Below are positions 15,872 through 31,566 of a DNA stretch of 64,000 nt, one piece after another; the first letter of the stretch is position 1; every line of letters starts with the position of its first letter. Below the pieces are notes generated by a model. That model made no database searches, was not told where the DNA came from, and worked only from the letters and a program-made list of their open reading frames with translations. Source of the stretch: Arcobacter ellisii (GTDB taxonomy: Bacteria > Campylobacterota > Campylobacteria > Campylobacterales > Arcobacteraceae); the NCBI RefSeq assembly GCF_003544915.1, contig NZ_CP032097.1:1364001-1428000 (forward strand), written 5' to 3'. A program made the translations under genes and the position numbers.

Positions 15872-16041
15872 ATCTAAGTAGTTCGAGATTTCCATTGTTG
15901 TGGGTCCGAATAAATAATTTTCGCGGGCAGTTGTAGTCAGATGGTGTGCAGCGATTCATTGCGTTCTCGCTCCTAAAATCTGCACTTGCCTGCAATTTGT
16001 GGCTTATGTGGGCCATTTGATGGTTAACGACTACTTGGGTA
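15872..16041 (+). ncRNA. ssrS: Structured RNA, probably 6S RNA (ssrS); left copy, complete
   Basis: A GC-rich, rod-foldable stretch without coding potential. AAGTAGT (15876-15882) pairs with ACTACTT (16030-16036); inward, CCATTG pairs with TGATGG, a GGTCC pairs with GGGCC, GCGGGCA pairs with TGCCTGC, and the apical hairpin is GTGCAG with CTGCAC enclosing AGCGA with TCGCT. A long rod with an open centre and about 165-170 nt is what 6S RNA looks like. 6S RNA binds sigma-70 RNA polymerase. A TAAAAT (15860-15865) is the likely -10. A copy of its 3' part sits just upstream of purD, and as I recall 6S RNA neighbours purD in epsilonproteobacteria. SRP RNA, tmRNA and RNase P hallmarks are absent. Confidence 0.62.
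15936..16041 (+). repeat. Left attachment repeat of the island (3' part of the 6S-like RNA)
   Basis: These 106 bp recur at 31461-31566 in the same orientation with two mismatches (in the segment near 15974-15980). Flanks diverge immediately on both sides, defining target-type duplication by site-specific integration. The left copy completes the RNA gene. Confidence 0.88.
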
Positions 16042-16093: not shown

Positions 16094-16115
16094 TCTATCA
16101 CAAACTCATTCACAT
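16094..16115 (+). repeat. Left copy of 22-bp internal direct repeat
   Basis: Starts CTATCACAAACTCATTCACA and is identical at 31357-31378. One copy lies 52 bp inside the left att repeat and the other 82 bp outside the right one, both inside the island. Candidate integrase arm site. Confidence 0.75.
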
Positions 16116-16151: not shown

Positions 16152-17384
16152 ATGAGTGTAAATCAACTAATTCCTACATTAAATACTAATAAATATGGTG
16201 TCTACTATCTTAGATTTAGAGTATCTAAAAGACTAAGAAGATTTTTTGACAAAGAGTACATTACTAAAACACTGTCTACAAAAGAATATAAAAAAGCTAA
16301 AGTTAAAGCTATGGTCTATAGAAGCAGATACTTAGAGTTACTTGAAGTTTCAGACTGGATTGATGATGATACATTAAAGTTAAAAGTTGATGACTACACA
16401 AAGAATATTCTTAAACTTGTTATTCCTGATAAATTAGAAACACAGACTAAACAAGACTTAGGGCTTAATATTAAAGAAGCTTTTGCATTGTATGATAAAT
16501 GGTACAAGAAGCAAAATATTTCAGAACACCAATATAAACTTGTAATAAAAAGACTAGGAACAGCTATAAACTACTTTGGAGAGTCTAAGCTTGTAAGAGA
16601 ACTTACTACAGATGATATTGAAGAGTATATTGATTTTCTTACTACTTATCCAAATCCACTTAAAAGCCCTTACAAGTCTATGAGTTTCAAAGAAATATTA
16701 CAGCTAACAAATGTTCCTTCTAAAGACTTTATCTCATCTAGTACAGTAATTAAGTATATCAAAGCATTTAGACAACTAGAGAACTTTCTTGTAGATGATG
16801 GTAAGATAGATAGAAAAATAAGTAAGAGAGCAAAACTACCAACACCTTCTACAGTTAGTGTTAATCCATTTAATGAAGATGACTTAAAGATTCTTCATAA
16901 GGAGTTTGATATGTTAGGTGATTTAGGTCTTATTTACTATACATTTGCCTATACTGGAATGAGAACTTCTGAGTTTTGGAAATGTAGAATAGGGTGTAAA
17001 GATAAGATATACTATTTTGATTTGTCATATAAAGGCGTAGAGCTTAAAACAGCTTCAAGTAGACGTTTGATACCTATTCACTCTAAACTTATCGATAAAG
17101 GCATTCTAAATAGCTTAAAACACCTACAATCAAACTATAAACAATCTACTGTGAGTAATACTTTCAATAACAAGGTTATAAACTCAATTAAAGATAAAAA
17201 GAACAAAGTAATGTATGGTTTTAGACATACTGTTGCAACTAATCTAAAAAGAGCTGATGTTGATATTGACAAAATCTCAGAAATATTAGGTCATTGTTAT
17301 GAAAATACTTCAATGACAAAAACAGTTTATACTAATGGTTACACACTTAAGCAACTAAAAGAAGCCATAGAATGCTTGATGTAA
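16152..17384 (+). CDS. int: Tyrosine recombinase, island integrase
   Basis: 410 residues. The N-terminal 1-60 is a DNA-binding region starting with NKYGVYYLRFRVSKRLRRFF, followed by a core-binding SAM-like domain (about 115-235). The catalytic domain has the first arginine in AYTGMRTSEFW, the box-II GFRHTVATNLKR, then ILGH and the nucleophile tyrosine in TVYTNGY. The gene lies 110 bp from the left att repeat and reads away from it, the usual arrangement for integrases of RNA-gene islands. It meets hsdR tail to tail (5 bp apart). ATG 16152 has only a weak purine-rich ribosome site. Confidence 0.9.
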   Translation: MSVNQLIPTLNTNKYGVYYLRFRVSKRLRRFFDKEYITKTLSTKEYKKAKVKAMVYRSRYLELLEVSDWIDDDTLKLKVDDYTKNILKLVIPDKLETQTKQDLGLNIKEAFALYDKWYKKQNISEHQYKLVIKRLGTAINYFGESKLVRELTTDDIEEYIDFLTTYPNPLKSPYKSMSFKEILQLTNVPSKDFISSSTVIKYIKAFRQLENFLVDDGKIDRKISKRAKLPTPSTVSVNPFNEDDLKILHKEFDMLGDLGLIYYTFAYTGMRTSEFWKCRIGCKDKIYYFDLSYKGVELKTASSRRLIPIHSKLIDKGILNSLKHLQSNYKQSTVSNTFNNKVINSIKDKKNKVMYGFRHTVATNLKRADVDIDKISEILGHCYENTSMTKTVYTNGYTLKQLKEAIECLM

Positions 17385-23425: not shown

Positions 23426-24030
23426 TTATGTATGATTAATAAGTTTTATATCTTGTATATTTGTAGCTCCTCCATCTCTTATATCCTCAATTCCCAAATG
23501 AATATAGTTTAAACTTGTACTAAGATTTTTATGTCCCATAAAGGTCATAATCTTATAACTATTCCATTTACTAATACTTGCTAATTTTGAAGCGACTGTG
23601 TGTCTAAGACCATAAGGTATATACTCTTTATATCTTTCTTTATCTGTCCAACCAAGATATCTTTTCATCTTATTCCATCTGTATTCAATCATATCTTTTG
23701 TAAGTGAAGTAAAGGTTAGTTTACTGTAGTTAATATTGTTTATTTCATCTTTCAATACAAAAGGTTTGTTTAGCTTTAATTCATAAAGTTTAGTTAGTGC
23801 AAACTCTAGCTGTAATTTAACTGCTTCTAAAACAACTCCGTTTAAGGGTAAAGTTCTTATCAAATTATTTTTTGTTGAAGCATAAGTACCTCTACTTATT
23901 GTTAATGTATTTTGTTCTAAATCAAAATCTCCAATCTGCAAATTATAATACTCTGCTGGACGTAAACCTAATCCTGAATTAATTATAAAAAACTGTATCA
24001 TTTCCCAATCAGTTGGATTTCTTGTGAAAA
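23426..24030 (-). pseudogene. Tyrosine recombinase, C-terminal fragment (cut by IS21-type element)
   Basis: About 200 codons carry the catalytic half: GLGLRPAEYYNL (first Arg), PYGLRHTVASKL, FMGHKNLSTSLNYIHL (His and nucleophile Tyr). The reading frame runs back into the insertion sequence, which supplies a false start. Together with the fragment at 26551-27134 it forms one recombinase of about 400 residues. Rejoining with a 4-bp AAAA duplication gives a continuous frame reading MNFFTRNP across the junction, so the gene was probably intact before insertion. Confidence 0.85.
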
Positions 24031-24096
24031 TTTTGATTGAAATTTGACCCACTTTTTTGATTAAAAATGACCCACCTGCAGATTGAAATTATAACA

Positions 24097-24936
24097 TTAA
24101 ATTTCGTTATTTTTATTCTCTAAATTTTGTTTCTTTTTACTTTTTGGCAATAAATCTTTCATTCTATAACTTGGACCATTTATTAAAAATGGATGTGAAT
24201 GATGTAAAAGTCTATCTAGTATTGCTGTTGCTATCACATCATCATTAAATATCTGTCCCCATTCTTGAAATTCTTTATTTGATGTAATTATTGTTGAAGA
24301 TTTTTCATATCTCTTTGAAATAAGTCTAAAAAAAAGTGATGCTACTTCTCTTGAAAGGTCTAAGTATCCAATTTCATCAATTATTAGTAACTCTATTCTA
24401 CTCATACTTTCAAGATAATCTGTTATAGTATTAGAGTGATTTGCAGCTATTAGTTCATTGGTTAAATCTTCAGCACTTATAAATTTTACTCTTCTTCTTT
24501 GTTTGGTGGCTTCAAGTCCTAATGCAATTGAAAGATGAGTTTTTCCAACTCCTGGTGCTCCAACTAAAAGTACATTTGTAGCACTATCTAAAAAGCTTAG
24601 AGTTGCTAATTCTCTTATTAATTTTTCATCTATTTGTGGTTGAAAGCTAAAATCAAACTCATCTAAAGTTGCCATATATTTGAATCCTGCTTTTTTAATT
24701 CTAGCATTTACACTTCTATCAACTCTATCAACAATTTGTTGTTGCAATAGTTTATACAGATAATCTTGATATGATAGTTTTGCTTTAGCAGCATCGAGTG
24801 CTGCACTTTCATAATTATCTGCTACTGATGAAAGAGATAAAAGTTTGCAATAACTCTCTATATTTGCTTTTAGTGAACCATTTTCTAAATTAACTGGTCC
24901 AGAATTACGTAAGTTTGTTGTATTTTTAGTTCTCAT
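24097..24936 (-). CDS. istB: IS21-family helper ATPase IstB
   Basis: 279 residues, DnaC/DnaA-like AAA+ ATPase. Walker A is GAPGVGKTHLS (about 126-136) and Walker B LLIIDEIGYLDLS (about 189-201), with the family's RLISKRYEKSSTIITSNKEF after it. The N-terminal helical part (about 1-100) is typical of IstB. It forms oligomers on DNA and directs IstA to the target. The start overlaps the istA stop by 4 bp (ATGA), coupling the two. Confidence 0.95.
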   Translation of the reverse strand: MRTKNTTNLRNSGPVNLENGSLKANIESYCKLLSLSSVADNYESAALDAAKAKLSYQDYLYKLLQQQIVDRVDRSVNARIKKAGFKYMATLDEFDFSFQPQIDEKLIRELATLSFLDSATNVLLVGAPGVGKTHLSIALGLEATKQRRRVKFISAEDLTNELIAANHSNTITDYLESMSRIELLIIDEIGYLDLSREVASLFFRLISKRYEKSSTIITSNKEFQEWGQIFNDDVIATAILDRLLHHSHPFLINGPSYRMKDLLPKSKKKQNLENKNNEI

Positions 24937-26435
24937 AATTTGTAATCTCCTAAATCTCTTTTTATATTTGCTTGGGGTAATTTGATATTAAACAGATTTA
25001 ACTGTTCATTTTTTGGCTTAGTTTGATGTGTAATTGTTCCTTTGATAAAGGAGAAGCTATAAATATTTAAACTAATTGCTTCTTCCATTGCCATAATACA
25101 ATCAGCTTCATCATAGTATTCAAACAAGTTTGCTATTTTATAAAGGTGATAAGCTGGGCTAATTCTTTTTTGAACTTTGATATTTTCAATGAATTTATGA
25201 ATATTTATGTAGTTAGCAAATCTTTTTATAAGTCTTGATATTGAAATGGCTATTGAATCAAACTGACTCTCTTTTCTATATCCAAAGAAATGCTCTTTAT
25301 TAACAAGGACTTCACCTTTTTTAAGGCTAATTGTATGAGTTGCTATTAGTTTATTTTTACTTGAGTATATTTGCAAAGTTGTTCCATATAATACTCTTAA
25401 CCACACCTCTTTACTTGCAAAGTAATGTGGAACTGAATATTTATTACCTTTGTAAGAGACTAAACATTCAGAATTTGCCTTTCTAAACTCTTCTTTAAAT
25501 CCAACATATCGTTTTAATTCCCCAGTTATTGGATTTATTGGTAGTGGTTTTAAAAAACTTTGTTCCTCTTTTTCAAAGAGTATTTTTGAAATTTGTTTAG
25601 TTGTTCCATGAATTTCAAGATTATGCTCATCTTGGAATTGTTTTAATCGTTCTCTTAGATCTTCAAAGCTTTTAAACTCATTTCCAGATATAAAATGTGT
25701 TTCAAGATAACTAAAAGGTGATTCAACTTTACCTTTACTCCATGGATGTGATGGCATACTTCGTGTTGGTTTTATTCCATATAATCCACACAATGACAAG
25801 AATCTTGGATTCCAAATTAGATTATCTTTAGAAGCATTTGTTATAAATACTGTTGCATTATCAACTTGTATTCTCTCACAAACTCCACCAAAGAAGATAA
25901 AACTCTCTTCTAATGCTGTATATACATCACTTCCTGATACATTTAAACTTACATCATAAAATTTATATCTACTAAATCCTAAGATTGTTTGATGTATATT
26001 TATTTTTACAAGATTTTCCCCAATAGTAACTGTATATGGACTCCAATCATATTGCATCTGTTCAGCTGGTTTTGTTTCATATCTCATGTAAGCATGAGGT
26101 GAATTTTTACTTACATCGTTTGCTATTGGTTTTAAAATTTCTCTTATGTAAGCATATAAAGCATATTGACTTCCTCTATATCCTTTTGATTTTATATCTT
26201 TTAAAATTCTACTAGCTTTTAAATTTTTCTTTAAAAATGACTCTTTGATAAAATCAATAAATGGTTCAACTGCTTCATTTATCTTTTTCTCACCTCTGTT
26301 ATATAAAGGTAATTCATCACTTGCTAATGCTTTTTTTACAGTATTTCTACTAATACCTAACATTAAAGCAATGGTTCTTGTCCCTAAGTTTGGATCTTTC
26401 TTTTTTAGATTACGAATAGTTACCCAATCCTCCAT
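24933..26435 (-). CDS. istA: IS21-family transposase IstA
   Basis: About 500 residues. The N-terminal helix-turn-helix has GTRTIALMLGISRNTVKKAL. The DDE catalytic core includes Asp in MQYDWSPYTV, Asp in IQVDNATVFI, and Glu in WSKGKVESPFSYLE. A C-terminal beta-barrel follows (about 320-390). I place the start at ATG 26435 (MEDWVTIRNLKK), nine bases after GGAG; the ATG at 26444 directly abuts the ribosome site. It cuts and joins the IS ends, with IstB as partner. Confidence 0.95.
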   Translation of the reverse strand: MEDWVTIRNLKKKDPNLGTRTIALMLGISRNTVKKALASDELPLYNRGEKKINEAVEPFIDFIKESFLKKNLKASRILKDIKSKGYRGSQYALYAYIREILKPIANDVSKNSPHAYMRYETKPAEQMQYDWSPYTVTIGENLVKINIHQTILGFSRYKFYDVSLNVSGSDVYTALEESFIFFGGVCERIQVDNATVFITNASKDNLIWNPRFLSLCGLYGIKPTRSMPSHPWSKGKVESPFSYLETHFISGNEFKSFEDLRERLKQFQDEHNLEIHGTTKQISKILFEKEEQSFLKPLPINPITGELKRYVGFKEEFRKANSECLVSYKGNKYSVPHYFASKEVWLRVLYGTTLQIYSSKNKLIATHTISLKKGEVLVNKEHFFGYRKESQFDSIAISISRLIKRFANYINIHKFIENIKVQKRISPAYHLYKIANLFEYYDEADCIMAMEEAISLNIYSFSFIKGTITHQTKPKNEQLNLFNIKLPQANIKRDLGDYKL

Positions 26436-26550
26436 ACTAATCATCTCCTTTTACCTTTCTTCATAATTATTATTTTTATGAGAAAAGAGTATGTTTTTTT
26501 AGTTTACAGGTGGGTCAAAAGTTTTCAAAATAGTGGGTCAATTTTCAGTC

Positions 26551-27134
26551 AAAAAATTCATTCTTGTTTCATCATAAATATTAAGTAAGGTGTTATACAT
26601 ATCCAACTCTTCATCTTTTGTAAAACTAATTTTTCTTTTTGAGTCTATACTCATTTTTAAACCTTGAAATGATAGTTTATTTTCAAGTATAATTTTTTGT
26701 TTTCGTTCAAGATATTCAACACTTGATTTTAGTGCAGAAATGTAGTGATTAACTGTTTTATTTGCATATTTTTTATTTACAAGGTATCTTTTAAATCTAT
26801 CAAGGTCATCTATTGTAAGATTTGAAATAGCTCTTTTTTCTCCAAAAAAACTGCAAATCTTTAACCATCTATCTTTTGGATTTCTTTTATCTCTAAAATA
26901 CTTCCATTTTGTTTCATATAAATATTCAGTAGCATCATAAAAAGTTAATTTTCTTGAACCATTTTCAGGGTTAGGATATATACTAGGTTCTTTTATATAT
27001 TTTTTCCACTCTTTTTCAAGTCTAAGAGCTAATTCTTTATCTTGAGTATCCCAACTTTTTTGATACCTAATATGATTAATTTTAAAATCTGATTTCCAAT
27101 AACCATTAGTTTTTTGATACATTCTAATCTCCAA
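26551..27134 (-). pseudogene. Tyrosine recombinase, N-terminal fragment (cut by IS21-type element)
   Basis: About 195 codons from ATG 27134, with an AP2/Arm-type DNA-binding start (YQKTNGYWKSDFKINHIRYQ) and a core-binding domain (TIDDLDRFKRYLVNKKYANK). Its frame ends four codons inside the insertion sequence. It is the missing front half of the fragment at 23426-24030. This recombinase is different from the island integrase at 16152. It may have belonged to an earlier or nested element; direct repeats at 23361 and 27256 flank it. Confidence 0.85.
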
Positions 27135-27614: not shown

Positions 27615-28247
27615 ATGACAATAGGATACCTTAGAGTTTCAACTGATAAGCAAACTGTTGAGAATCAAAAGAGTGAGATTAGAGCTTACTGTAATGATAA
27701 ACTAAAGATAACTGTTGATGATTGGATTGAAGTTGTAATGAGTTCAAGAAAAGATTTAAGAGATAGAAAGATTGATGAACTTTTATCTGTCTTATCAAAA
27801 GATGATAAAGTAATTGTAAGTGAACTTTCAAGACTTGGTAGGTCAACTCAAGAAGTATTACAAACAATAGAAAGACTAATGAACTTACACGTAGAACTAC
27901 ATATCATTAAAAACAATCTAGTAATTAATCCTAATAATAAAAATGACTTTGTTTCAAAAGCTATGGTAACTTTGTTTGGTCTGTTTGCAGAACTTGAAAG
28001 AGACTTGATTAGTCAAAGAACTAAAGAGGCTCTAAAGTCAAGAAAAGAACAAGGTGTTAAACTTGGTAAACCTGAGGGAACTTTACAAAAATCAAAATAT
28101 GATGAATATAAAGATAGAATCATTGAACTTAAAAACTTAGGTCTATCTCTAAATAAAATAGTTTCAAATCATTTAGAACCAGTTATGGGAAAAGGTAACT
28201 GTTCAGTTCAAAGCTTATCTACTTACATCACTAAAAGAGGTCTGTGA
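27615..28247 (+). CDS. Serine recombinase (resolvase/invertase family)
   Basis: 210 residues. The catalytic serine is in IGYLRVSTDKQTVENQ (Ser about 9). The conserved arginine region SELSRLGRSTQEVL is near 73-86, and the E-helix is LFGLFAELERDLISQRTKEA. The C-terminus (about 165-210) is a helix-turn-helix. It resolves cointegrates or inverts DNA at paired sites. AAAGGAG precedes ATG 27615. The spaced inverted motifs upstream could be its binding sites. It could serve the island or be a plasmid relic. Confidence 0.93.
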   Translation: MTIGYLRVSTDKQTVENQKSEIRAYCNDKLKITVDDWIEVVMSSRKDLRDRKIDELLSVLSKDDKVIVSELSRLGRSTQEVLQTIERLMNLHVELHIIKNNLVINPNNKNDFVSKAMVTLFGLFAELERDLISQRTKEALKSRKEQGVKLGKPEGTLQKSKYDEYKDRIIELKNLGLSLNKIVSNHLEPVMGKGNCSVQSLSTYITKRGL

Positions 28248-28401
28248 AGTCATCTCACAGCTCTTGTTTTAATTTATCCTAATACTTTTATTACCTAACT
28301 ACTAAAAAGGCTTGTAGCCAACTTCAGAGAAGACTTTTATATCAAAAAATCACCCTAAAAATCCACTTTCAGAAATGCTCATAAAATCGGCTTTGTAGAA
28401 G

Positions 28402-28421
28402 ATAGCCCACTCTAGGAAAGA
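28402..28421 (+). repeat. Dispersed repeat containing TAGCCCACTCTAGGA, copy 1
   Basis: ATAGCCCACTCTAGGAAAGA matches the 3' half of the two repeats at 29596 and 29656. It sits 65 bp ahead of the small ORF at 28467. Confidence 0.6.
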
Positions 28422-28466
28422 AAATCTATCCAAAATAAACAAAATCAAGTCAAAAAGGAGGTTCAA

Positions 28467-28538
28467 ATGAACAACAATCAAACACAAAGGATAAGCCACT
28501 TAAATTGGTGTATCAAAGGGAAGCGTAATGGCTACTAA
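28467..28538 (+). CDS. Possible 23-residue leader peptide
   Basis: A short ORF (ATG 28467, stop TAA 28536-28538) beginning MNNNQTQRISHLNW. It is preceded by a very strong ribosome site, AAAAAGGAGG. It overlaps the first 11 bases of the next gene, whose own ribosome site is weaker. This is typical of a leader peptide or coupling ORF. No function is known. Confidence 0.45.
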   Translation: MNNNQTQRISHLNWCIKGKRNGY

Positions 28539-28980
28539 TCGAAAATATATTGCTAAAGTTCAACGAAGTAAAGTTGATATGAAAGAGACAGTTATTGAAT
28601 TAAGTCCTAATGCCTTTAAACTTCTTAATCTGATTTACTATGAAATATTAAAAGATGAAAACCTAGCAGATGATAAAGCAATGAAACAACTTGGAGTTTC
28701 ACGAAGACCATACTATAAAGCAAAAGATGAACTCAAAGAAAAAGGTTATATTAAAATCGTTCAAGTTGGTTCAACTAAATATAAATGGTATGTAGGTAAA
28801 GAAGCAATATCTAAAGATGACTTGAAGTATCAAAATAAGAAGAGAAAAGATGATGAACTCTTTGCTCAATTAGTTTTAGAAGGTATTTCTATTAATAATC
28901 AAGATTTTAAATCTAAAGAGAGTGGTGTATTTGTTCTTGAAGGGTTTGAACAAGACTTTGAAGATGAAATAGTAATCTAG
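28528..28980 (+). CDS. Winged-helix DNA-binding protein, unknown role
   Basis: 150 residues. The segment 20-85 looks like a winged helix: LSPNAFKLLNLIYYEIL, then MKQLGVSRRPYYKAKDELKE, then the wing GYIKIVQVGSTKYKWYVG. The C-terminal half is charged and acidic, with no further motif. Such domains occur in plasmid/phage replication and regulatory proteins. ATG 28528 has GGGAAG upstream and overlaps the small ORF. The non-coding region behind it contains repeats that could be its binding sites. Confidence 0.7.
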   Translation: MATNRKYIAKVQRSKVDMKETVIELSPNAFKLLNLIYYEILKDENLADDKAMKQLGVSRRPYYKAKDELKEKGYIKIVQVGSTKYKWYVGKEAISKDDLKYQNKKRKDDELFAQLVLEGISINNQDFKSKESGVFVLEGFEQDFEDEIVI

Positions 28981-28985
28981 TATGG

Positions 28986-29130
28986 TATGACCAAAAAGGA
29001 CATAATGGTAATATATACTTGTAAGAAAACTAAAGAGACTTTTAGTTGCTGTCAAAACTTCTAAACTAACGATATAAAATGTGCTATGACCAAAAAGGTT
29101 ACGATAGTAATATATACTTATGAGAAAACT
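28986..29130 (+). repeat. Two 46-bp direct repeats
   Basis: Copies at 28986-29031 and 29085-29130 share TATGACCAAAAAGG and GTAATATATACTT, with roughly 39 of 46 matching positions and a period of 99 bp. They lie directly after the winged-helix gene. Confidence 0.75.
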
Positions 29131-29595
29131 TAACTGGACAGAAAGTATAAAGCTAAAACTGTCCAATATAAAAATTAAGCCCATTTGATAGGCTATACAG
29201 AGCTTATACTGTAAAGAACAACAATCTTATTTTAAGTAGGGACTTTAAGAGTCTTTGGTTGTTGGTTAAGCTTGATAATCTATAGAAAAGAGATTATCAA
29301 CAGACCATAAATCATATTAAACTGACTGTTACTGTTGCTGTGTAGTTGTTCTTTAACTCTCTTCTATATTAGTATTGTATTTAGAAATAAGATGTAGTAG
29401 CTAGTATAGATGTATTAAAAGTAGTGCTATTGCTAGACCTTAATCTCATTTCTAATAATCAATAAACTTAGAATTAATACTTAAAGAATAACTATAGGTT
29501 GGACTTTAAGTTCCCTGCTCAATAAGTGTCTTTCTTTTATATTGTCTATTTCTTTCTTTAAAATGCCACCTATTGTACTTCTCAAACCGAAAGCT

Positions 29596-29697
29596 TGTCG
29601 GATTAAAGTTCCTTCCTACAGCCCACTCTAGGAGAGAAAATAGTTGAAACTTGACTGTCGGATTAAAGTTCCTTCCAATAGCCCACTCTAGGAGAGA
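29596..29697 (+). repeat. Two 42-bp direct repeats with 60-bp period
   Basis: Copies at 29596-29637 and 29656-29697 share TGTCGGATTAAAGTTCCTTC and GCCCACTCTAGGAGAGA. A partial third copy is at 28402, and a degenerate GGACTTTAAGTTCCCTGC is at 29501. They are upstream of the gene at 29817. Confidence 0.8.
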
Positions 29698-29816
29698 GAT
29701 ACTCCAAACACTTAATTTAATTAAGTTACATAAATTACGGAATTACCGTCATAAATAGTCTTGTTGCCCTTATTGTAGGGTTAATCAATCTAAAAATCAA
29801 AAAAGGAGATTTAAAA

Positions 29817-30458
29817 ATGAAACAAACAGAAAAATACAAAATGAGATTTGGAGCTTCTATAATGGGAGATACAGATTACATAATGATAAGAAATGAGTTC
29901 TTAAAAAGTAAAAAAGTTTTTTCAAGATTTAAGAAACTTGAGAAAGCTGAAGGATTCAGTTGGTATGAAGTAGAGAATGCAAGACAACTTATTACTACTT
30001 TCAATTGGAAAAATACATCTGAAGGTTATTCTTATTGGAATAAAATCCATACTGAATGGTTAGAGTATATAGGTATATTTGGGAAATATAATAATTTAAA
30101 GCAATATGAAACAGCTTTAGAGAAAGTAGCTGTATTTAAAAGTTTATTAAGTGAAATTGATAAAGATGGTTTTGATGCTTTTTTGTCTGCCTTTATAACT
30201 GATAATGAAGATTTAGAGTTATTTATAAATGATACATTACTTAAAACTTTTCTTGGAGGTTATAGTAACTCTAGTGTTATAAAGATTTGGTTAGATGACT
30301 ATCACTTAGAACAAGATTACTGGAAAAATATTTTAGAAAAGATGAAAAAAATAGATTTTCTAATGTACGAACTGGATAATAATCCAACTCTTAAAGCATC
30401 ATTTCTCAGAACTATACCACTAGATGAACTTTTTTCAGAGGACGACTTATGCAACTAA
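29817..30458 (+). CDS. Unknown island protein
   Basis: 213 residues, no family recognised. Predicted helical and rich in aromatic residues (SYWNKIHTEWLEYIGIFGKY, VIKIWLDDYHLEQDYWKNIL). No signal peptide, membrane span or catalytic motif. AAAGGAG precedes ATG 29817. It overlaps the next gene (Rha-like) by 10 bp, so the two form an operon. The region upstream has 42-bp tandem repeats that may control it. It resembles small phage or island host-interaction proteins only in general features. Confidence 0.75.
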   Translation: MKQTEKYKMRFGASIMGDTDYIMIRNEFLKSKKVFSRFKKLEKAEGFSWYEVENARQLITTFNWKNTSEGYSYWNKIHTEWLEYIGIFGKYNNLKQYETALEKVAVFKSLLSEIDKDGFDAFLSAFITDNEDLELFINDTLLKTFLGGYSNSSVIKIWLDDYHLEQDYWKNILEKMKKIDFLMYELDNNPTLKASFLRTIPLDELFSEDDLCN

Positions 30459-31144
30459 TATCTAAACACAAAATAAAAGGGGAGAATATCCCTGTAACAA
30501 CTTCAAGAAAAGTTGCAGAGATTTTTGAGAAAAGACACGCAGACGTAATTAGAGCTATTGAAAACTTGATAGATGGAGGAGACCCCAATTTTGGGTTGTC
30601 CTCTAACGAGCTCAATATTGCGTTGGTTAAAATGTTCTTTATTTCACAGTATAAAGACAAGAAAGGCGAAACAAGAAAAGAATATCTTTTAACTCAAGAT
30701 GGGTTCACTCTTTTAGCTATGGGATTCACTGGACCTAAAGCTCTTGAGTTTAAGTTAGCTTATATAAAAGCCTTTAATGAGATGAAGAAAGAGCTAGAGG
30801 ACTTTAGGTTTCAACGTAAGATAGCTAAAGAAGGTTACAAGGGACTTACGGGTTCACTTAAAGATGAGCTTGGAGATGACGCTAAGATTTATCACTTTAG
30901 TAATGAGGCTGATATGCTAAATAAGATTGTCTTAGGGCTTACAGCTAAACAATATTGTGACATTCATCAAGTAGATAGAAAGTGTATGAGAGACCATTTA
31001 AGTTCAAAAGACTTAGAGGTAATATCAGAACTAGAGAAGTATGATGAGTTCCTGATAAGGAGAGGTTTCACTTATAAACAAAGAGAAGAAGAATTAAGTG
31101 AATATCATTTAAGAAGATTAAGAAAAACTTTGGAGGTGGCTTAA
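30449..31144 (+). CDS. Rha-family phage regulatory protein
   Basis: 231 residues. The N-terminal pRha domain (about 12-110) shows TTSRKVAEIFEKRHADVIRA and then KEYLLTQDGFTLLAMGFTGP with KALEFKLAYIKAFNEMK. The C-terminal part (about 120-231) is a second, unassigned region with AKQYCDIHQVDRKCMRDHLS. Rha proteins occur in temperate phages and phage-inducible elements, where they influence phage growth. It starts inside the preceding gene. A frameshifted zinc-ribbon ORF follows directly. Confidence 0.85.
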   Translation: MQLISKHKIKGENIPVTTSRKVAEIFEKRHADVIRAIENLIDGGDPNFGLSSNELNIALVKMFFISQYKDKKGETRKEYLLTQDGFTLLAMGFTGPKALEFKLAYIKAFNEMKKELEDFRFQRKIAKEGYKGLTGSLKDELGDDAKIYHFSNEADMLNKIVLGLTAKQYCDIHQVDRKCMRDHLSSKDLEVISELEKYDEFLIRRGFTYKQREEELSEYHLRRLRKTLEVA

Positions 31145-31356: not shown

Positions 31357-31378
31357 CTATCACAAACTCATTCACATT
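31357..31378 (+). repeat. Right copy of 22-bp internal direct repeat
   Basis: Identical to 16094-16115 and in the same orientation, near the other island end. The region 31245-31460 otherwise holds no gene. Confidence 0.75.
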
Positions 31379-31460: not shown

Positions 31461-31566
31461 GTCAGATGGTGTGCAGCGATTCATTGCGTTCTCGCTCCTG
31501 AAATTTGCACTTGCCTGCAATTTGTGGCTTATGTGGGCCATTTGATGGTTAACGACTACTTGGGTA
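31461..31566 (+). repeat. Right attachment repeat; 3' fragment of the 6S-like RNA gene
   Basis: 106 bp matching 15936-16041 with two differences. The RNA's 5' strand, needed for the closing stem, is absent here, so this copy is not a full RNA gene. A TTAGATAAAATAA identical to the -10 area of the intact copy is at 31399-31411, which may be chance or an old copy. purD starts 35 bp downstream. Confidence 0.85.

Follow-up and report, generated by a model that had tools for sequence, protein, structure and literature searches.

A conserved noncoding module, tentatively read as a structured control RNA, in small integrative elements of Arcobacteraceae

Three kinds of described systems come closest to the locus studied here. 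The C4 antisense RNA of phages P1 and P7 is short and acts on the adjacent ant gene, ColE1 RNA I and IncFII CopA are antisense RNAs of plasmid replication, and origins are placed beside rep genes in both plasmids and phage satellites. We compare with them a noncoding stretch (28981-29816) of Arcobacter ellisii that lies in a mobile island, behind a winged-helix gene and ahead of the genes for a 213-aa protein and Rha.

We analyzed a window of 64,000 nucleotides, part of a 2.8-Mb genome, in which the stretch belongs to an island of ca. 15 kb. The order of the island genes is integrase (16152-17384), type I restriction system, IS21-type element, resolvase, winged-helix gene, noncoding stretch, 213-aa gene, and Rha gene (Table 1). 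The IS21-type element (ca. 24025-26560) apparently interrupts a second integrase gene (23426-24052 and 26538-27134), and a copy of it with 98% identity is present in the locus of genome G018. Two near-identical copies of the purD RNA motif (RF01069) lie at the island edges, at 15933-16040 (46.2 bits) and 31461-31565 (39.7 bits, slightly below the cut-off of 41), and inside them there is a 16-bp perfect repeat (16100-16115 and 31362-31377). Among the 31 genomes searched, including the window's own, only the latter and G011 had two matches to the motif. Given that its copies bound the island, the integration site seems to be a structured purD leader RNA. Neither the 79-aa nor the 213-aa island protein had a family above the cut-off, and the remaining 103 family genomes had zero matches to the latter. 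For the winged-helix protein, AlphaFold gave a model (pLDDT of 39) too poor for a structure search. The leader ORF begins with ATGAACAACAA, and the operons of G018 and G124, two genomes that also carry the module described below, have this sequence at their head.

Table 1. Features of the noncoding stretch and its neighboring genes (window coordinates)
Feature	Position	Strand	Remarks
Repeat-2 core AGCCCACTCTAGGAAAGAAAAT, 22 nt	28404-28425	+	In leader 5' of winged-helix gene
Short leader ORF, 23 codons	28467-28538	+	Overlaps start of winged-helix gene
150-aa winged-helix-type protein, weakly DnaD-like	28528-28980	+	phrog_186, 1.1e-05
Repeat 1, copy 1	28983-29034	+	52 nt
Repeat 1, copy 2	29082-29133	+	52 nt; joined to 5' domain of core
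5' domain of core (model R1)	29126-29276	+	Contains hairpin 29135-29165
Center of variable stretch	29328-29343		Ca. 71 bases longer in G018; absent with its surroundings in G124
3' domain of core (model R2)	29360-29570	+	Hairpin A 29382-29454; conserved tail ca. 29524-29560
Repeat 2, copy 1	29596-29637	+	42 nt
Repeat 2, copy 2	29656-29697	+	42 nt; upstream of 213-aa gene
213-aa protein, function unassigned	29817-30458	+	Weak PHROGs of unknown function only
Rha-family phage regulator, antirepressor type	30449-31144	+

The plus strand of the stretch has no ORF of at least 60 aa, and a 102-aa ORF on the minus strand overlaps its left part. An earlier note on this DNA had described direct repeats with periods of 99 and 60, including a third, partial copy of repeat 2, and all of them were found where it had placed them, far above the level of shuffles. 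The two copies of repeat 1 are 83% identical and those of repeat 2 are 95% identical; the best 40-nt direct match (offset of 40 to 120 within 28981-29816) was 38/40, whereas none of 60 dinucleotide shuffles exceeded 27. The repeat-2 core also has a 19/24 match upstream of the gene for a 250-aa protein in G018. The 11-bp spaced inverted repeat (arms 29212-29222 and 29345-29355) and the perfect 10-bp hairpin (arms 29272-29281 and 29291-29300) that the note had reported exist as well; they are only mildly above chance, with at least one 10-bp inverted pair within 60 nt in 58/500 shuffles and at least two within 160 nt in 21/500. By eye, both are mostly retained in G018 and absent from the other copies of the module, unlike hairpin A, which is a conserved structure (see below).

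Comparison of genomes shows that the core of the stretch (29125-29561) is noncoding DNA conserved as a module in small integrative elements. When 100 relatives were searched at the DNA level, 10 genomes, the window's own among them, had matches at an E value of ≤0.001. Long matches were confined to G018 (94% identity over 29125-29327 and 85% over 29344-29561); G052 had a 49-nt match to repeat 1, and the remaining seven genomes had matches of 25 to 39 nt. A search of 398 genomes of the order added G124, with 81% and 80% identity. We then used two models, R1 for the 5' domain and R2 for the 3' domain, each built from the window, G018, and G124. R1 matched four of the 104 family genomes, with G121 newly found, and these four were within the six matched by R2 (window, G018, G124, G121, G133, and G052), so that the module is present in 6/104. 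In two wider samples, R2 gave three matches among the 398 order genomes, none of them new, and R1 found the window alone among 347 genomes of the phylum. There was no blastn match to the module in phage and plasmid collections, and IMG/VR pattern scans and a protein search returned nothing. Rfam gave no match at the gathering score over the whole window, and what it gave for 28200-29900 at E values up to 10 was far below the cut-off.

Short matches to the core (E value of ≤0.001) were found in 28/398 order genomes. Eight of the 26 beyond G000 and G124 were inspected and rejected as module copies, all being isolated matches with no module around them; by eye, those of G415, G112, G057, and G365 fall in one common coding sequence (the ORF being confirmed only in G415), which we take to be sugar-transferase-like. 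Along similar lines, the repeat-1 block, with up to two mismatches, occurred at eight places in six of the 104 genomes. Five were at modules (twice in the window and once each in G121, G133, and G052), and the other three were away from modules, each with two mismatches. Since a backwards control of the block also matched in six genomes, once each, we consider the two-mismatch matches to be noise. A report on Arcobacter sp. L describes rare noncoding regions confined to the genus and leaves them unnamed (PMC6429828), so that the module may have been sighted before. The literature on mobile elements of Campylobacterales, as far as abstracts show, holds nothing close.

The module copies are ca. 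290 to 520 bp long and differ in their 5' part. In G052 and G121, a single repeat 1 lies only a few bases behind the winged-helix gene, and a short 5' part and then the 3' domain come next. The copies in G018 and G124 are without repeat 1, and in them the 3' domain, which is the same, comes after a 5' domain whose hairpin is of the GGACAG or GGACAC type; a remnant of this second type is found further along in G121. The window merges both types, with the winged-helix gene, two copies of repeat 1 (seen only here), and then the 5' domain of the G018/G124 type. The copy in G133, which looks degenerate, lacks the winged-helix gene and has a single repeat 1 and the 3' domain, upstream of which lies another, partial 3' domain. 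After this module, there are ca. 2.6 kb of noncoding DNA (L045, 6200-8840, minus strand) with, by eye, ca. 10 copies of a unit of ca. 110 nt that is probably hairpin forming and apparently derived from the 3' end of a Rha gene.

A Pfam-confirmed integrase was present in all six module-bearing elements, of which that of G124 measures 5.4 kb and is flanked by two tRNA-Val copies. The gene 5' of the module encodes the winged-helix protein in the window, G052, and G121, the two relatives being 58 to 60% identical to the window's protein. Their DnaD-like matches were at 8.5e-05 (G052) and 0.031 (G121), compared to 1.1e-05 in the window. A search of 298 order genomes for this protein found the window's own only, and the two relatives came from a scan of genome contigs. 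In G018, this position is taken by the unassigned 250-aa protein and in G124 by an RNase H followed by a 419-aa phrog_2467 protein (L025, 8061-9320), a possible replication protein as judged by its relatives, which include YonV of SPbeta and proteins of Acinetobacter plasmids. On the 3' side, five of the six elements have an antirepressor-type gene with the same orientation as the module, namely, Rha in the window (where the 213-aa gene separates it from the module), G018 (a partial gene, 6.5e-10), and G124 (below the Pfam cut-off; 1.4e-10 with PHROGs) and KilA-N in G052 and G121. A 55-aa fragment in G133 is Rha-like by eye only, and Pfam and PHROGs gave nothing for it.

Folding was more stable than in shuffled sequences at 29125-29480 (z of -3.0; 0/100 shuffles as good) and 29205-29365 (z of -2.9; 2/200). 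Whole-module z values on the plus strand were -4.0 for the window, -3.6 for G121b, -2.1 for G018, -2.0 for G124, -1.1 for G052, -0.6 for G133a, and +0.2 for G121a, with values of ≤-2 in four of the seven copies on this strand and in three of seven on the minus strand. The 3' domain alone ranged from -0.8 to +1.0 on the plus strand in five of seven copies. We also compared, in six copies (the partial G133b was excluded), the pairing of the two arms of hairpin A with their own partners or with arms swapped between copies. Own partners reached -18.8 kcal/mol versus -13.7 for swapped arms, and ranked 4/720 among permutations on the plus strand and 8/720 on the minus strand; among the six copies, three are close relatives whose arms are interchangeable. 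The energy gap of 5.1 compares to ≤1.6 in 12 control windows, which had shorter arms; the controls ranked from 11 to 705, two of them reaching 11 and 18 of 720. For the inner stem of hairpin A, the ranks were 180/5040 (plus) and 770/5040 (minus), and for hairpin B, they were 220/5040 and 1038/5040. Overall, the covariation among homologues, a check that the earlier note had proposed, is thin; hairpin 1, with 28/28 cells paired and one double change, was within the range of shuffles (135/500 as high). Hairpin A is probably real, its pairing being kept despite sequence divergence, as RNA or single-stranded DNA and on either strand. Together with repeat 1, a structured core is kept in the homologous islands, where the note had asked for conservation, in line with its view that the stretch exceeds ordinary promoter DNA.

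The conservation of the core, its position, its variable middle, and the one hairpin that is kept can be read in several ways. We favor, with a probability of roughly 40%, a structured control RNA that would be transcribed and regulate either the replication operon or the antirepressor (lysogeny) genes of the element, over a replication origin, the main rival, or plain regulatory DNA. We infer transcription, strand, and target as follows. The module would be exchanged as a unit between small integrative elements, with repeat 1, at its upstream edge, serving as an operator or a site of promoter type. The core would be transcribed from one strand or both and act as a structured RNA that sets the expression of the replication operon or the antirepressor, in a mode that may be likened to plasmid antisense RNAs or the C4 RNA of phage P1. 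The noncoding RNA that the earlier note had offered as one identity of the stretch is compatible with what we found. A scan of the window called no promoter at repeat 1. If the core is an RNA, the small integrative elements of Campylobacterales would encode a new regulator.

Pairing of the module was evaluated with the start of the replication operon as the target. Perfect complementarity of the minus strand to the opening codons of the operon extends over 11 nt in the window (3/1000 shuffles) and 10 nt in G124 (15/1000), followed by 8 nt in G018 (161/1000) and 7 nt in G052 and G121 (592 and 648/1000). Against 300 shuffles, minus-strand duplex energies stood at 1 for the window, 90 for G018, 8 for G124, 9 for G052, and 16 for G121, and plus-strand energies stood at 27, 36, 89, 126, and 51 in the same order. 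Windows of the same element that paired at least as well were 28/730 in the window's element, 368/734 in G018, 44/470 in G124, 18/571 in G052, and 196/745 in G121. Given that the operon start is not special among them, it is a lead, and an only weakly supported one, as the antisense target. We consider it quite improbable that the module is a new RNA family of small integrative elements in which the 3' part is a fixed scaffold and the 5' domain can be exchanged, the latter pairing with the start of the element's own replication operon and changing along with the replication gene. A ColE1-like RNA primer, prompted by the RNase H in G124, found no further support and was set aside.

The replication origin is a serious if doubtful alternative. 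Here, the module and repeat 1 would be the start point for the replication protein of the element, the hairpins would be single-stranded DNA structures, and the replication module of these elements would thereby be defined. Its position agrees with this, directly 3' of a replication-type gene wherever one could be named (window, G052, G121, and G124), as does the AT-rich repeat 1, in which an TATATATA run adjoins a conserved TGACCWAAAAGG block. Relatives of the 419-aa protein of G124 are plasmid borne (28 records), and one Acinetobacter plasmid has no other replication protein in its gene table, which is incomplete. However, the core is nearly constant while the upstream protein is replaced, unlike what is expected of a cognate origin, and phage and plasmid collections gave no match. 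BLASTP detected no similarity between the winged helix and the proteins upstream of the module in G018 and G124 (E values of 0.30 and 0.62), and since such dissimilar proteins precede a near-identical module, it is, on these comparisons, unlikely that the latter serves as the specific site at which the winged-helix protein binds. The iterons bound by this protein that the earlier note had suggested therefore do not fit the core. At most, the suggestion suits repeat 1, which directly follows the gene in all three elements that have it and may be a site of the protein, but there is no iteron array, the repeat is single in two of these elements, and it is present in G133 without the gene.

It appears unlikely that the module is regulatory DNA only, in which operators, promoters, and terminators form a mosaic that separates two operons and structure is incidental. 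Single hairpins are indeed within reach of shuffles, and the window (29194-29178, within the 5' domain) and G018 have terminator-like hairpins at a shared position of the minus strand, which would also suit the control RNA; none was called in the modules of G124, G052, and G121. On the other hand, ca. 440 bp at 80 to 94% identity, save for the variable middle, is much for separate sites, and the pairing of hairpin A is kept between divergent copies. As for the oriT of the earlier note, which would have to be served by a relaxase in trans, inverted repeats are present, but a Pfam scan of 13 island proteins found no relaxase, plasmid collections gave no match, and the module follows replication-type genes, which makes it very improbable.

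Set beside the described systems, the module resembles each of them in part. Like C4, it is a noncoding control region that a mobile element carries 5' of a gene of antirepressor type, although C4 is short, whereas the module spans several hundred base pairs and has no match in Rfam. In common with ColE1 RNA I and CopA, it adjoins a replication-type operon that has a short, overlapping ORF in its leader, and there is a complement of 10 to 11 nt to the leader start in the window and G124; in contrast, it is located 3' of the replication gene instead of within the leader, and within the element, its pairing with the target does not stand out. With rep-adjacent origins, it shares an AT-rich composition and a place directly after a replication-type gene, but its core stays constant across different upstream proteins and has no iteron array. 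If the module is an RNA, its conserved partners, a replication-type gene and an antirepressor, make its function directly testable.
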